The position numbers and the translations under genes were made by a program. The notes beneath the pieces were generated by a model, which searched no databases, had not been told where the DNA came from, and saw only the letters and a list, made by a program, of their open reading frames with translations. Positions 13,274 through 18,034 of a stretch of DNA of 22,285 nucleotides are shown here, piece by piece; the first letter of the stretch is position 1; every line of letters begins with the position of its first letter. Source of the stretch: an uncultured Eubacteriales bacterium (GTDB taxonomy: Bacteria; Bacillota; Clostridia; Oscillospirales; Oscillospiraceae); the NCBI GenBank assembly GCA_900549405.1, contig URNZ01000030.1, forward strand, positions 1-22,285. Direction: 5' to 3'.

Positions 13274-14326
13274 TCAGACCCCCTCTCTTCTGGCTTCCAG
13301 GGACTTCTGGATGATGATCTCGCACAGCTGGCCATAGTCGATGCCCACCACAGCGGCCTCCTGAGGCACCAGACTGGTGGGGGTCATACCGGGCAGGGTG
13401 TTGATCTCCAGGAAATAGGGGGTTCCGTCCTCCGTAACGATAAAGTCCGCCCGGGAATACACCGCCAGCCCCACCGTCTGGAACACGGTGAGAGCCGCCT
13501 GGCCCACTTTTTCCTCCCACTCCTGGGGGATATCAGCGGGGCAGACATCCAGGGTCGCGCCGGGCTGATACTTGTTCTCATAGTCATAAAAGCCCTGCTT
13601 GGGGATGATCTCGATGGAGGGCAGGGCCTTGCCGTCCAGCACGGCCACCTGGATCTCCCGGCCCTGGACATACTGCTCCAGCACCGTGCGGCCGCCCAGG
13701 CGGATGCTCTCCGTCAGGGCGTGGCGCAGCTCTTGGCGGGTCTTGGCGATGAACACGCCGATGGAGGAGCCGCTGGCGATGGGCTTTACCACCACGGGCA
13801 GCTGGGTTTCAGCCGTCAGGGCGTCCACATTCTCCTCCGTCACCGTCACGGTCTGCCACTTGGGGGTGGTCACTTTGCCGGCCACCAGCTGCTTGGTCAT
13901 GTCCTTGTCCATGGCGATGGCCGAGCCCAGATAGCCCGAGCCGGTGTAGGGCACGCCTAGCAGGTCCAGGGCAGCCTGGATGCGGCCATCCTCGCCGCAG
14001 GCCCCGTGGAGGGCCAGATAGACCACGTCCGCCCCGGCGCACAGGTCCAGCACCCCGGGCCCGATGGCGGAGGGGCTTTGGGTCTTGCGGCTGGCGCGCA
14101 CCTGGTCCAGGTCGGGGGCCTGGCGGCTCACATGGAGAAATTCCTCCGGGATGGGAGCGCCATACAGGGCCTCCGGCTCCTTGTCCCAGTCATCCAATCC
14201 AAAAAACAGATCGACCAGCGCCACCTGGTGGCCCCGGTCCCGCAGCGCCTGGCACACCAGCGCGCCGGAGGACAGGGATACATTGCGTTCCGGGCTGAGT
14301 CCCCCGGCCAGTACCACGATCTTCAT
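13274..14326 (-). CDS. ddl: D-alanine--D-alanine ligase
   Basis: It joins two D-alanines using ATP to make the peptidoglycan dipeptide. It has 350 residues, the longer form with an insertion after residue 40. Visible ATP-grasp features are GGLSPERNVSLSSG (8-21), LHGACGEDG (106-114), VVVKPIASGSSIG (178-190), VLEQYVQGREI (215-225), FLEIN (305-309) and PGMTPTS (312-318). The omega loop reads FYDYENKY (246-253). This Tyr-containing form is typical of D-Ala-D-Ala ligases, not of VanA-type D-lactate ligases. The ATG at 14326 begins the first beta strand; its GAGG is 12 bases away, rather far, and a TTG two codons earlier is better spaced. It is the first gene of the ddl, murF, ABC-F, SanA-like unit. 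Confidence 0.95.
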   Translation of the reverse strand: MKIVVLAGGLSPERNVSLSSGALVCQALRDRGHQVALVDLFFGLDDWDKEPEALYGAPIPEEFLHVSRQAPDLDQVRASRKTQSPSAIGPGVLDLCAGADVVYLALHGACGEDGRIQAALDLLGVPYTGSGYLGSAIAMDKDMTKQLVAGKVTTPKWQTVTVTEENVDALTAETQLPVVVKPIASGSSIGVFIAKTRQELRHALTESIRLGGRTVLEQYVQGREIQVAVLDGKALPSIEIIPKQGFYDYENKYQPGATLDVCPADIPQEWEEKVGQAALTVFQTVGLAVYSRADFIVTEDGTPYFLEINTLPGMTPTSLVPQEAAVVGIDYGQLCEIIIQKSLEARREGV

Positions 14327-14393
14327 ATTCAACAGCACCTCGTTTTTCCTTTTCGGCACACTTATTGCATGATACACTATATGCTAGCTGAAC

Positions 14394-14422
14394 ATTTTAG
14401 CACATCCCCCGTCAATACGCAA
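14394..14422 (-). promoter_or_regulatory. Candidate extended -10 promoter for ddl operon
   Basis: On the minus strand TTGCGT (14422-14417) is followed by 17 bases and TAAAAT (14399-14394), with TGC directly before the -10 as in extended -10 promoters. Transcription would start near 14387, about 60 bases before ddl. The -35 is weak and the call rests mainly on the -10, the spacing and the position. Confidence 0.5.
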
Positions 14423-14478
14423 GCAGAGGAAGGATTTTTCCATATAACACAAAACAAATATCCCTAGCAATATATTCG

Positions 14479-14516
14479 CAAAATAATACCTCACGGTCAT
14501 GCGCCCCGTGAGGTAT
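14479..14516 (-). terminator. Intrinsic terminator of the controller-nuclease unit
   Basis: An 11-bp perfect stem, ATACCTCACGG (14486-14496) with CCGTGAGGTAT (14506-14516), and a nine-base loop. On the minus strand it is followed by TATTTTG. It lies 14 bases after the nuclease stop codon and marks the low-coordinate end of the AT-rich restriction-modification island, just upstream of the ddl promoter. Confidence 0.75.
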
Positions 14517-14529
14517 CATTGCTATCGCT

Positions 14530-15366
14530 TTACAGCATAGATTTTAATAATTCAGGCCATCTGTCAAAAACTTCTCTGCCAACAATCACTTCGTCCACCA
14601 ACCCCATATTCAGTGCGTCAATAATACGGCAGAGATACGATTTTCCTTTCGTCCACCACGTTTGATAAGCATCTACAAACAACACATGGTAAATCTTTTC
14701 TCCCGTTCTTTCATATAATTCTTTAAACTCATACCCATCGAGTTGTGTTTCATAAACTCCGTCTGCTACACGGCTTCCAAATGTCGTTGCGTAATAATAT
14801 TCTTTTATCTCCCACACCATCTTCGGATTCTTGATACTAGGATATGCACCATCGAACCTACGCGAAGAAACTCCGAGTAGCGCTCCGTTATCGTTATGCA
14901 TACGTGTCAAGCCTTTAGGATCATCGTCAAATCCAAGGCCAGACACATTTGGCAATGCTTCACGAATTGTTTTCTCTGCAAGTATGTTAACAGCTGCCGT
15001 AAAATAAGAAATCTGTTTTTTGTCACCTTTTTGCTTATTTTGCTGGATTTTACAGAGAAAATCTTCTCGGTCATGTAATTGCAGAAGTGGACAGCATTCG
15101 GTGCGGGCTTGTTCTGCATTCATAAGCATGGACTCTACGAAATTATTCAAAATATCTGCACGCATATTCAAATAATTGATTACGGGTTCAAGCATTTCAT
15201 CTGGTATATTAATATTTTCTTTTTTGCATAGCCCTTTGATTTGCTTTTCAGAATAGTTACGAACAATACCTTTTCCTCGTTTTGTATAGCCTAGTTTCTC
15301 TGAAATAAACTTGACAAATGCCCAAAATTCTATTGACATATTTTGAAATTCAGAAAACGCCCTCAT
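14530..15366 (-). CDS. Putative Type II restriction endonuclease, PD-(D/E)XK-like
   Basis: A 278-residue protein I cannot assign to a named restriction enzyme. It is called a nuclease from context (controller in front, methyltransferase opposite) and from a PD-(D/E)XK-like core. FDGAYP has Asp172, followed 14 residues later by Glu186-Ile-Lys188 in VWEIKEYY, then QLDGY (208-212), which fits the QxxxY helix motif of many such nucleases. The N-terminal half (1-130) is charged and helical, perhaps a target-recognition domain. There is no signal peptide or membrane segment. The ATG at 15366 overlaps the controller stop codon as ATGA and has GAGGAGG about ten bases upstream. Base composition is far richer in AT than in neighbouring genes, which suggests horizontal transfer. 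The cut site is unknown. Confidence 0.75.
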   Translation of the reverse strand: MRAFSEFQNMSIEFWAFVKFISEKLGYTKRGKGIVRNYSEKQIKGLCKKENINIPDEMLEPVINYLNMRADILNNFVESMLMNAEQARTECCPLLQLHDREDFLCKIQQNKQKGDKKQISYFTAAVNILAEKTIREALPNVSGLGFDDDPKGLTRMHNDNGALLGVSSRRFDGAYPSIKNPKMVWEIKEYYYATTFGSRVADGVYETQLDGYEFKELYERTGEKIYHVLFVDAYQTWWTKGKSYLCRIIDALNMGLVDEVIVGREVFDRWPELLKSML

Positions 15367-15587
15367 TCTCTCTCTGCCTCCTCAAACAACTCCGTTATAG
15401 AAACATTTAATGCACATGCGATTCTAGAAATGTTCTCTAATGATACGTTTCTCTTCCCTAATTCCACATCGCTAATGTATGTACGATGCAGGGTACACAG
15501 ATCAGCGAGCTTCTCTTGAGAAATGTTCCGTTCTCGACGAAGTTTCCTAATCGCTCTTCCAAAACGCATTAGAATTGTCTCAGACAT
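15363..15587 (-). CDS. Restriction-modification controller protein, XRE-type HTH
   Basis: A 74-residue DNA-binding protein with a helix-turn-helix: FGRAIRKLRRERNISQEKL, then HRTYISDVELGKRNVSLENI and ALNVSITELFEEAE. Size and fold match the C proteins that time nuclease expression after a restriction-modification system enters a new cell. The start is taken at the ATG at 15587, which has a GGGGGTG ribosome-binding-like site eight bases upstream. The ATG six codons earlier has none. It overlaps the nuclease gene by four bases, so the two are translationally coupled. Its probable operator is the tandem C-box at 15629-15654, about 40 bases upstream. Confidence 0.9.
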   Translation of the reverse strand: MSETILMRFGRAIRKLRRERNISQEKLADLCTLHRTYISDVELGKRNVSLENISRIACALNVSITELFEEAERE

Positions 15588-15623
15588 CACTTGACACCCC
15601 CGCATATGTAAATTATAATTAGA

Positions 15624-15652
15624 TTGTCTATTATAAGTCTACAGACTATAAG
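15624..15652 (+). promoter_or_regulatory. Promoter of the methyltransferase gene, inside the C-boxes
   Basis: TTGTCT (15624-15629), a 17-base spacer and TATAAG (15647-15652) form a good sigma-A-type promoter. Transcription would start near 15659, giving a leader of about 14 bases with CGGAG before the ATG. Because the C-boxes cover the spacer and the -10, the controller should repress this promoter while tuning its own. Confidence 0.65.
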
Positions 15653-15654
15653 TT
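15629..15654 (-). promoter_or_regulatory. Tandem C-boxes: operator of the restriction-modification controller
   Basis: Read on the minus strand there are two boxes, AACTTATAGTC (15654-15644) and GACTTATAATA (15639-15629), separated by TGTA. They fit the known C-box plan GACTnnnAGTC, twice, with a GT-centred spacer. The downstream box is the poorer match, as expected for the weaker repressing site. It lies at the -35 position of a minus-strand promoter whose -10 is TATAAT at 15617-15612. This fits activation from the upstream box and repression when both are filled. The same boxes overlap the plus-strand methyltransferase promoter. Confidence 0.75.
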
Positions 15655-15672
15655 ACGAAACGGAGCCGTTTT

Positions 15673-16530
15673 ATGATTCCTGCATTGCTAAAATGGATCG
15701 GAAACAAACAGCGCTTTGCTGAAACCATTGTTTCATATATGCCAGATGAATTTGTAAATTACTACGAGCCCTTTTTAGGTAGTGGTGCCGTAATGGCTGA
15801 ACTACTCCATGCGGACAGCAATAAGATATATCCTCATCTGATACACGCCTACGGCAGTGATATACTCCCTTTTCTTATTGATGTATTTAATTATACAAAA
15901 GATTCCCCAAATCAATTAATCGATTACTACACCAAACAAATCGATGAATATTACCTCTCCCCAGTTGAAAAATACAACGAAATTAAAGACAGATTCAACT
16001 CTAATCATAACGGATTGGATTTCTGTGTGCTCTCTCGGACTTGCTATTCTGGAATCATCCGCTTCAGAAAAGCTGATGGATACATGAGTACCCCAAAAGG
16101 TCCTCATTCTCCAATAAAACCAACCACATTTAAAAATCGTGTTCTTCAGTGGCATGAATTGCTTGACAAGGCAAGTTTTCAAACCGAAAGTTTTATAACC
16201 GCAATGGATAAACCCACAGCAGGCGATGTTGTATATTGCGACCCTCCTTATACTCATTCTCAAAGCATTATCTATGGGGCTCAGAGTTTTAATATCAACG
16301 ACTTATGGATTAAGATTGACGAATGTAAGCGTCGCGGTGCCAAAGTAATGCTTTCTATCAACGGAATGCGAGAGTCCAGAAAAAAGAACATCTCTGTTGA
16401 AATTCCACAGGGGCTTTTTGCGCGGAAGATTATAATTGATTGCGGGACATCTATGATTGATCGGCTACAGAGTTCCGGCAAAGAAATGATTGGTGAAAAA
16501 GTTGACGATCTGCTCTTACTAACCTGGTAA
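15673..16530 (+). CDS. DNA adenine-N6 methyltransferase of the restriction-modification system
   Basis: A 285-residue alpha-class adenine methyltransferase (D12/Dam family) that would protect host DNA from the adjacent nuclease. Motif X is KWIGNK (7-12). Motif I, binding S-adenosylmethionine, is YEPFLGSGAV (31-40). Catalytic motif IV is VVYCDPPY (186-193). The segment DRFNSNHNGLDFCVLSRT followed by SGIIRF (126-131) resembles the M.EcoRV/Dam branch, so a GAT-containing target is a reasonable guess, not a finding. The ATG at 15673 has CGGAG seven bases upstream. It is the only plus-strand gene in the window, divergent from the controller across 85 bases, and ends at a bidirectional terminator. 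It is AT-rich like the rest of the island. Confidence 0.93.
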   Translation: MIPALLKWIGNKQRFAETIVSYMPDEFVNYYEPFLGSGAVMAELLHADSNKIYPHLIHAYGSDILPFLIDVFNYTKDSPNQLIDYYTKQIDEYYLSPVEKYNEIKDRFNSNHNGLDFCVLSRTCYSGIIRFRKADGYMSTPKGPHSPIKPTTFKNRVLQWHELLDKASFQTESFITAMDKPTAGDVVYCDPPYTHSQSIIYGAQSFNINDLWIKIDECKRRGAKVMLSINGMRESRKKNISVEIPQGLFARKIIIDCGTSMIDRLQSSGKEMIGEKVDDLLLLTW

Positions 16531-16576
16531 TCATATATACCCATTCTGATTATATTTTCTTTGCAATTTTAGATAT

Positions 16577-16611
16577 AAAAATGGCGTGACCGCAAAAGTC
16601 ACGCCATTTTT
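16577..16611. terminator. Bidirectional intrinsic terminator between methyltransferase and MATE gene
   Basis: AAAAATGGCGTGAC (16577-16590) and GTCACGCCATTTTT (16598-16611) form a perfect stem with loop CGCAAAA. T-runs follow on both strands. It lies between two convergent genes, 46 bases after the methyltransferase stop and 46 bases after the MATE stop, and can serve both. It marks the high-coordinate edge of the AT-rich island. Confidence 0.9.
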
Positions 16612-16657
16612 ATTGTCTTCAACCTCAAACGATTGAACCTATTACATCTTACGTCAT

Positions 16658-18034
16658 TTACAGATGGACTGGCAGGGCTTCTCCGTCTTTCAGCCGTCCC
16701 AGGGGGCGGTAGAGGGTGAAGTACATGGTGGCGAAGCAGGCCAGGCCGCCGATGAGCTGCGAGGCCGCCTCGGCATAGAACACGCCCATGGTGTCCATCC
16801 AGATGGGCAGGATCACGGTGAGGGGGGCGTTGATGATGGCCTTGCGGAGCAGGGAGAAGAACACCGCCTGCTTGGACCGGCCCAGGGCCACGAACACCGA
16901 CTGCCCCGCCGATTGCAGGGACATGGGGATGAACAGGGCGAAATAGACCCGCAGGGCGGGCACACCGGCGGCGATGACCTCCGGCTCGCTGTTGAACACC
17001 CGGATCATCAGCTCAGGCAGGAGCATGGCCGCAGCCCAGAAGACGCCGGCATAGGCCACGATCAGCCAGCAGGTGAATCGGATGGACTTGCGCACCCGGC
17101 TATACAGCCCCGCGCCGTAGTTAAAGCCCATCACCGGCTGGGCGCCGTTGCTCAGACCGTGGACAGGCATGAAGAACACCTCCCGCAGGGAGTTGATGAT
17201 GGTCATCACGCCCACATACAGGTCCCCGCCATAGCTCTGGAGGGTGGCGTTGCACACGATCTGCACCAGACTGTTGGTCATGTTCATAAAGAAGCCGGAC
17301 AGGCCAAGGGCCACGATGCGCTTTACCCGCCGGGCCTGGAGGGGCAGACAGCTGAGCTTCAGCGTGAGCAGGGCCCGCCGCCCGGTGAGGAATTTCAGCA
17401 CCCAGGCCGCCGAGATGGCCTGGGAGATGACGGTGGCCAGGGCCGCCCCCTTCACCCCCATGTTCAGCAGGAAGATGAAGATGGGGTCCAGGACGATGTT
17501 CACCGCCGCCCCCAGCACCACCGTCATCATACCCACCGAGCCAAATCCCTGGGCGTTGACGAAGGGGTTCATGCCGAGGCTTATCATCACAAACAAGGTG
17601 CCCATGAGATAGATGGTCATGTAGTCGTCGGCATAGGGGAAGGTGGCGTCGCTGGCCCCGAAGAGATAGAGAATGGGCCGCTTAAAGGCTAGGAAAAAGG
17701 CGGTGCAGGCCGCCCCTAAAATGAGCAGCAGGGAGAAGGAGTTGCCCATCACCCGCTCGGCCTCCTCCTGGTCCCCCTGGCCCCGGCAGATGGAGAAGAT
17801 GGGCCCGCCCCCGGTGCCGCACAGGTTGGCAAAGCCCATGATGATGGACACGATGGGGATGGTCACCCCCAGACCGGTGAGCGCCAGGTGGCTGCTCCCC
17901 GGCAGGCGGCCCAGATAGATGCGGTCCACCACGCTGTACAGCACGTTCACCAGCTGGGCCGCCGTCATGGGCAGGGCCAGGGACAAAATATTTTTGGAGA
18001 TGCTCCCCTTGGAAAAATCGCTTCTGCTGCCCAC
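16658..18034 (-). CDS. MATE-family multidrug efflux transporter, MepA-like
   Basis: An inner-membrane cation-coupled drug exporter of 458 residues with about twelve hydrophobic segments. It opens with FSKGSISKNILSLALPMTAA and NVLYSVVDRIYLGRL, typical of the first helix of MATE proteins. GANPVMG-like features appear as SNGAQPVMGFNYGAG (about 296-310), a hallmark of the MepA/DinF branch. The start is a GTG at 18034 with GGAGG eight bases upstream. Base composition matches the core genes, not the neighbouring restriction-modification island. It ends at the bidirectional terminator at 16577-16611. The substrate cannot be predicted. A short inverted repeat at 18074-18086 may be an operator. Confidence 0.94.
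   Translation of the reverse strand: MGSRSDFSKGSISKNILSLALPMTAAQLVNVLYSVVDRIYLGRLPGSSHLALTGLGVTIPIVSIIMGFANLCGTGGGPIFSICRGQGDQEEAERVMGNSFSLLLILGAACTAFFLAFKRPILYLFGASDATFPYADDYMTIYLMGTLFVMISLGMNPFVNAQGFGSVGMMTVVLGAAVNIVLDPIFIFLLNMGVKGAALATVISQAISAAWVLKFLTGRRALLTLKLSCLPLQARRVKRIVALGLSGFFMNMTNSLVQIVCNATLQSYGGDLYVGVMTIINSLREVFFMPVHGLSNGAQPVMGFNYGAGLYSRVRKSIRFTCWLIVAYAGVFWAAAMLLPELMIRVFNSEPEVIAAGVPALRVYFALFIPMSLQSAGQSVFVALGRSKQAVFFSLLRKAIINAPLTVILPIWMDTMGVFYAEAASQLIGGLACFATMYFTLYRPLGRLKDGEALPVHL

Follow-up and report, generated by a model that had tools for sequence, protein, structure and literature searches.

[Bacillus] caldolyticus NEB414 is the source of the restriction endonuclease BclI, which cuts at T^GATCA, and its methylome includes N6-methyladenine in TGATCA assigned to a Type II alpha methylase (PMC5805893). 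The BclI system has as its control element the solved chain 2b5a (PMC3062615). We describe here a cassette of the same kind from an uncultured Oscillospiraceae bacterium, found in a 22,285-nucleotide stretch of DNA (contig URNZ01000030.1, assembly GCA_900549405.1) that we refer to as the window. Positions 14530-16530 hold three intact, adjacent genes in the open reading frame (ORF) listing, here named R, C and M, which very probably form a complete, horizontally acquired BclI-family Type II restriction-modification (RM) system, with M methylating adenine, a C-box regulating expression and R cutting unmethylated DNA. The cassette belongs to a known kind of RM system and is a newly found member of an ordinary type. 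The original prediction was of a 2.2-kb AT-rich island with an XRE controller, a PD-(D/E)XK-like nuclease and a divergent adenine methyltransferase, and each part of it was borne out by the ORFs, GC content, family libraries, PADLOC and a structure model of R.

14530..15366, minus strand: R, probable BclI-family Type II restriction endonuclease, 278 amino acids, DUF7690 and DUF7687, putative catalytic D172...E186-x-K188.
15363..15587, minus strand: C, controller, XRE/HTH_3; the ORF opens at 15605, likely start at 15587.
15673..16530, plus strand: M, D12-class N6-adenine DNA methyltransferase, 285 amino acids, motifs FLGSG (34) and DPPY (190).

A tblastn search with R returned four plasmid records, among them pBcl1 of [Bacillus] caldolyticus NEB414. 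The C gene adjoining R on pBcl1 agrees letter for letter with "C.BclI", the solved chain 2b5a, and the R, C and M proteins of the window are 50, 51 and 58% identical to their pBcl1 counterparts, which stand in the same order; it is for these reasons that the cassette is assigned to the BclI family. Homology of R to the pBcl1 nuclease ORF is full-length (143 of 284 positions identical, E 7e-101), the full-length alignment of M contains one gap, and the two systems share the arrangement M<- C-> R-> and the core of the C-box. The R frame of pBcl1 stands next to C.BclI and M, and we infer from this position that it encodes R.BclI. The systems differ in that on pBcl1 the next gene after R is a tyrosine recombinase, whereas the window cassette looks chromosomal, lies in a GC-rich host and has no recombinase seen beside it. 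The M-C-R order is the same in three of the four plasmid matches and in two Oscillospirales genomes. An adenine methylase, a helix-turn-helix (HTH) regulator and a DUF7687 R are also found together on pBM69 (B. methanolicus MGA3), pGA2 (C. glutamicum) and pHL2708Z5 (Marinobacter), but these are plasmid-borne, uncharacterised relatives with R proteins 34-51% identical. The Marinobacter plasmid (L099:2694-5483) has four genes, an adenine methylase, C, a second DNA methyltransferase and R, which suggests two methylases for one nuclease.

Within the window cassette, M is divergent from the C-R operon, as on pBcl1, and the end of C overlaps the start of R by 4 bases. The internal ATG at 15587, rather than 15605, is likely the start of C, because transcription is predicted to begin at about 15605, the sequence GGGGGTG stands 5' of the ATG at 15587, and this start agrees with the pre-HTH spacing of C.BclI. 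The C protein matches the PADLOC model Control_protein (4.8e-27) and its best solved relative is C.BclI (2b5a, 2.2e-18). M matches PF02086 (1.9e-29), the dam subfamily TIGR00571 above its cut-off and PADLOC MTase_II (1.2e-87), and it carries motifs I and IV of the D12/alpha N6-adenine methyltransferases. M.BclI is not mentioned in the literature that we searched.

R matches DUF7690 and DUF7687, Pfam families of "unknown function", together with a PADLOC Type II restriction-enzyme model, and DUF7687 too is not mentioned in the searched literature. R homologues make up 6529 of 7267 candidates. In 45 homologue rows, D172, E186 and K188 are kept in 45, 44 and 45, respectively. The nearest solved folds to a confident structure model of R are BstEII (9ibq, 12% identity) and then BsoBI (1dc1, 8% identity), both PD-(D/E)XK enzymes, so that on the model R appears to possess the PD-(D/E)XK fold and catalytic residues. 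The targets of BstEII and BsoBI differ from the one proposed below for the cassette. A sequence search of the Protein Data Bank gave four weak matches (best E 0.036), with no EcoRV chain among them at E up to 1. Family libraries and the structure search gave restriction enzymes only, and the clear non-restriction homologue that would have counted against the original prediction did not appear. An orphan methyltransferase beside a non-restriction gene was rejected on the PADLOC matches and the structure comparison of R. No R was found in phage records. In viral-contig relatives (L085/L107, L109, L110), R and M are convergent and no C homologue is reported, possibly a layout that dispenses with C.

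By analogy with BclI, the target of the cassette is probably T^GATCA. Three observations weigh against so close an identification: the pBcl1 R is annotated as "hypothetical protein"; identities of 50-58% to the pBcl1 proteins give no guarantee of the same target; and TGATCA occurs twice in the 22-kb window against 5.6 expected, which is not significantly rare. It is an unlikely alternative that the system, though of the BclI family, is no TGATCA isoschizomer and has drifted in specificity, e.g., to another GATC- or GAT-containing site. Such drift would agree with the limited identity of R (50%) and M (58%), the insignificant depletion of TGATCA, the match of M to the general Dam subfamily and the second methyltransferase between C and R in the Marinobacter relative, but 19 of the 29 R columns from 185 to 213 are invariant across the 45 rows, at identities down to ~43%, and M aligns over its full length with that single gap. 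It is improbable that the cassette is intact in sequence and yet silent or inactive as a defence. Its position at a synteny breakpoint, discussed below, might suggest this, but the three frames are open, the motifs are intact, and near-identical clusters exist elsewhere for both R (97% identity, P0001, 40 members) and M (99% identity, P0121, 23 members).

The region between C and M contains the following control elements.

15626..15656, no strand assigned: putative C-box (tandem operators), GTAACTTATAGTCTGTAGACTTATAATAGAC in the C orientation; core common to six aligned loci.
15591..15619, plus strand: predicted M promoter, TTGACA-17-TATAAT, 12/12.
15612..15641, minus strand: predicted C-R promoter, TAGACT-18-TATAAT, 10/12, a consensus match only; overlaps the M promoter.

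Six chosen loci were aligned (alignment A3), namely the window, genomes G996 and G1161, pBM69, pBcl1 and one viral contig, and the C-box core ACTTA(A/T)AGTCTGTAGA is common to all six, which joins the 2b5a match in relating C to C.BclI. The longest exact match of the window control region is 16 bases both with pBcl1 (maximum of 15 in 500 shuffles) and with the viral contig (shuffle maximum of 12). The 12/12 M promoter recurs in both other Oscillospirales cassettes, three in all, and the C-box begins at about the predicted M transcription start. Not everything in this region favors common control: exact matches with pBM69 (11 bases), pGA2 (7) and the Marinobacter plasmid (8) lie within the range of the shuffles; there are 5 promoter-like sites where shuffles give 7.0, so we place weight only on the perfect M promoter and its recurrence; and the best M promoter of pBcl1 and pBM69 (11/12) lies nearer M, whereas that of the window is predicted upstream of the C-box, so that regulation may differ.

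A possible sequence of events can be proposed from this arrangement. Once the cassette enters a cell, M, expressed from a promoter predicted to be strong, would methylate the adenine of its recognition site, which is most likely TGATCA. C would bind the tandem C-box and at first activate the overlapping C-R promoter; as C accumulates it would repress the C-R promoter and also M, the first transcribed bases of which are covered by the C-box. R would then cut unmethylated DNA entering the cell, presumably at T^GATCA. The M and C-R promoters are thus predicted to be mutually exclusive, with C holding back M, a scheme akin to that of Kpn2I, whose promoters also overlap. EcoRV and Kpn2I are likewise controlled through C-boxes, and Kpn2I likewise has divergent M and C genes with overlapping promoters (PMC6237814), but Kpn2I C blocks its own gene, whereas in the window the C-box lies where transcription of M is predicted to begin. 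In a viral-contig relative (L081 4617-4762, the same as the L105 record), inspection by eye reveals two TGATCA sites beside the C-box in the C-M intergenic region, and methylation might itself affect control there.

Each end of the cassette carries a hairpin.

14486..14516, no strand assigned: hairpin 3' of R, likely terminator from its sequence and fold (z -3.2); absent from the terminator scan.
16576..16612, no strand assigned: hairpin 3' of M, likely bidirectional terminator; core GGCGTGACCGCAAAAGTCACGCC at 16583-16605; fold z -4.9 and -4.2 on the two strands.

Terminators had been predicted at both ends; strong hairpins are indeed present at both, but a consensus terminator scan of the island region found none, including neither of these, and their role as terminators is suggested by fold and U-rich arms only.

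The composition of the cassette is foreign to its surroundings. The GC content of R, C and M is 38.0, 40.9 and 39.4%, versus 60-70% in nine flanking genes, GC at third codon positions is 0.34-0.37 versus 0.85-0.90, and codon adaptation, with the same nine flanking genes as the reference set, is 0.14-0.18 versus 0.64-0.77. These values, and a sliding GC scan, uphold the earlier claim that the contrast with ddl and the MATE gene points to acquisition. The PF24736 profile, which recovers the family in seven of seven records known to contain it, found nothing in 64 genomes of the nearest genus or in a phylum sample of 398 genomes; relatives thus do not all carry these genes with matching composition. 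A search for R in 400 genomes of the family, run without a positive control of its own, was also empty, and the order-wide search found R in 2 of 394 Oscillospirales genomes. Horizontal acquisition of the cassette is therefore supported by its AT-richness, its alien codons and the absence of the family from the 64 genomes of the nearest genus. No integrase or transposase gene was seen by eye among the long ORFs of the window, as originally stated.

The island lies between two native genes.

13274..14335, minus strand: ddl, D-alanine--D-alanine ligase, native left neighbor; NF002378; up to 83% identical to Pseudoflavonifractor loci.
14394..14422, minus strand: ddl promoter, TTGCGT-17-TAAAAT (by eye), left limit of native sequence.
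16658..18034, minus strand: MATE transporter gene, native right neighbor; PF01554, TIGR00797.

From the ddl matches of at most 83%, the host appears to be near Pseudoflavonifractor/Flavonifractor. The check put forward with the original prediction, that ddl and the MATE gene adjoin in relatives without the island, failed: the available stretches of the best 80 of 339 ddl loci contain no MATE gene above 40% identity, and there is one paralogue at 25%. Fewer than 1000 bases are available upstream in 6 of the 80; upp and tsaB are present in 11 of the remaining 74, tsaB alone in 3 and neither in 60. In all eight relatives tested, the best MATE match (76-81%) is elsewhere in the genome, with aroQ adjoining in five and mutS2 following in four; three of the eight loci have neither, and one of these ends at a contig edge. 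In one relative (G007:C65) a single contig carries the MATE gene and ddl with order and direction unchanged but 19.6 kb between them, and the interval holds dnaG-, rpoD- and tgt-like genes (by eye) where the window has the cassette, which implies that segment 13274-18034 differs by rearrangement. Since ddl and the MATE gene are not neighbors in relatives, the cassette sits at a synteny breakpoint, and simple insertion between two stable neighbors was rejected on the same separation. The separation could also be taken to mean that ddl, the island and the MATE gene were joined by chimeric assembly and are not contiguous in the chromosome; this is very unlikely, as ddl retains its promoter, which is conserved in an alignment of the window with seven relatives, and the order and direction of the two genes are kept in G007.

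The whole cassette is found at unrelated sites in the two other Oscillospirales genomes, beside guaB in G996 (locus L113) and beside an ogg-like gene in G1161 (L114), both names assigned by eye. From R stop to M stop the two cassettes are 83% alike. Each adjoins a complete left element of ~142 bp, 84 and 15 bases from the last stop codon, respectively; the elements are 73% alike and run in the same direction, but one stands on the R side of its cassette and the other on the M side. An inverted copy of hairpin 1 is present at the far border of L114 and absent from that of L113, so that L114 has both ends and L113 the left only. Empty sites were sought: in the G996 genus the sequence downstream of guaB is unrelated in L118 and L119, and in the G1161 genus the ogg-like gene occurs in one of two genomes, G1161 itself. 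Rfam gave one match on L113/L114, at E 0.082 and far below the gathering score.

The element belongs to a dispersed type of ~90-150 bp with up to three hairpins and a consensus end GGATTTTG.GGG.CAAAATCCGATGCTCGTTATAACTGTGGACA (L122-L141, L147-L176, L177-L216). A covariance model of the L113 and L114 elements (R1) matches 37 of 345 genomes of the order at E 0.01, and at E 1e-8 a model of 18 copies (R2) has matches in 8 of the 87 genomes examined from one family, copy number ranging from 0 to 20 among the 87 (20, 13 and 11 in three of them); in the genus nearest to the window, R2 gives only weak matches (best 27.6 bits), in 5 of 64 genomes. As a DNA query the element was found in 1 of 10 genomes, G1161 itself, and the 73% copy in G996 was missed. 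One element pattern had no match in viral contigs. To the right of the element, GC is lower in 28 of the 29 copies (of 30) that are comparable on both sides (mean 0.477 vs 0.595; Wilcoxon p 1.9e-8). A change point to higher GC was fitted 0.3-3.1 kb rightward in 17 of 19 and 18 of 20 flanks, by a fit that always returns a point and with some small rises. A motif like inverted hairpin 1 (loop CTTCCTTRCGRAG, up to 2 mismatches), chosen after L114 and L181 had been seen, turns up to the right of the element in 15 of 19 and 13 of 20 flanks, and in 13 of the 19 and 7 of the 20 it lies no more than 160 bases from the change point. It is absent from 34.0 kb of left flanks, and its density is 0.19 and 0.18 per kb versus 0.023 per kb and strand in the 80 ddl loci. 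In the pairs L187/L188, L189/L214 and probably L210/L213, related genomes share one insertion, so these counts are not all independent.

The main frames of 25 of 39 units yielded 29 cargo proteins, of which 18 have a Pfam family, including a C5 methyltransferase, two other methyltransferases, three GNATs and a histidine phosphatase; none of the 29 is a transposase or recombinase by Pfam. Beside the element are a D12 methyltransferase with an AlwI-type nuclease in L177 (G990:C84), and in L191 (G862:C8) a C5 methyltransferase with an HTH domain, the next frame looking by eye like its nuclease. In G1178:C41, ~0.82 kb separates the element from an ABC gene, a gap of 18-32 bases in G1128 and G869, and the genes to the left of the element differ among the three. 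By eye, the element does not fit the integron attC consensus RYYYAAC/GTTRRRY. Word searches of titles and the starts of abstracts found no paper on such an element, which is weak evidence of novelty.

The window appears to keep at most one of the element's hairpins. The M-side hairpin shares the stem of element hairpin 2 (GGCGTGAC/GTCACGCC); the other two hairpins and the GATGCTCGTTATAACTGTGGACA core are missing, so no complete ~150-bp left element is present. Among 121 loci (1.29 Mb), the L113 core at up to 5 mismatches occurs only beside the cassettes and in the window (shuffled motifs, mean 0.9, maximum 4), and a post hoc regular expression for the stem occurs in 9 of 20 element loci and in the window, with none in 1.09 Mb of 89 relatives' loci. 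R2 matches the M-side hairpin at 17.6 bits (E 0.038 in 1.08 Mb, 7.7e-4 in the window alone), in the orientation seen in L114, its cargo side facing M; the hairpin is nearly palindromic, and R2 scores 11.7 bits on the opposite strand. No right end was seen: CTTCCTTRCGRAG has no match within 3 mismatches in window positions 14301-16800, and its reverse has one 3-mismatch match there, at 14974, inside R and off the border. Rfam found nothing in the window at gathering. The M-side hairpin may be just a terminator. It is conceivable, if doubtful, that the cassette arrived as cargo of undescribed short non-autonomous mobile units of Oscillospirales, with three hairpins at the left end and an inverted one at the right, in which case 16583-16605 would be a remnant of the left end and the ddl/MATE break a by-product.

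The interest of the cassette lies in the overlapping-promoter layout, in a name for DUF7690 and DUF7687, whose likely identity is a restriction nuclease of the BclI family, and above all in a clue to the means by which cassettes of this sort move. Two related genomes hold the same cassette next to a repeated hairpin element, copies of which elsewhere stand at the border of many short islands rich in AT, and this element provides a testable lead on the movement of small RM systems without a transposase of their own. The cassette also indicates a likely cutting site for a group of gut commensals, which is relevant to transforming its members.

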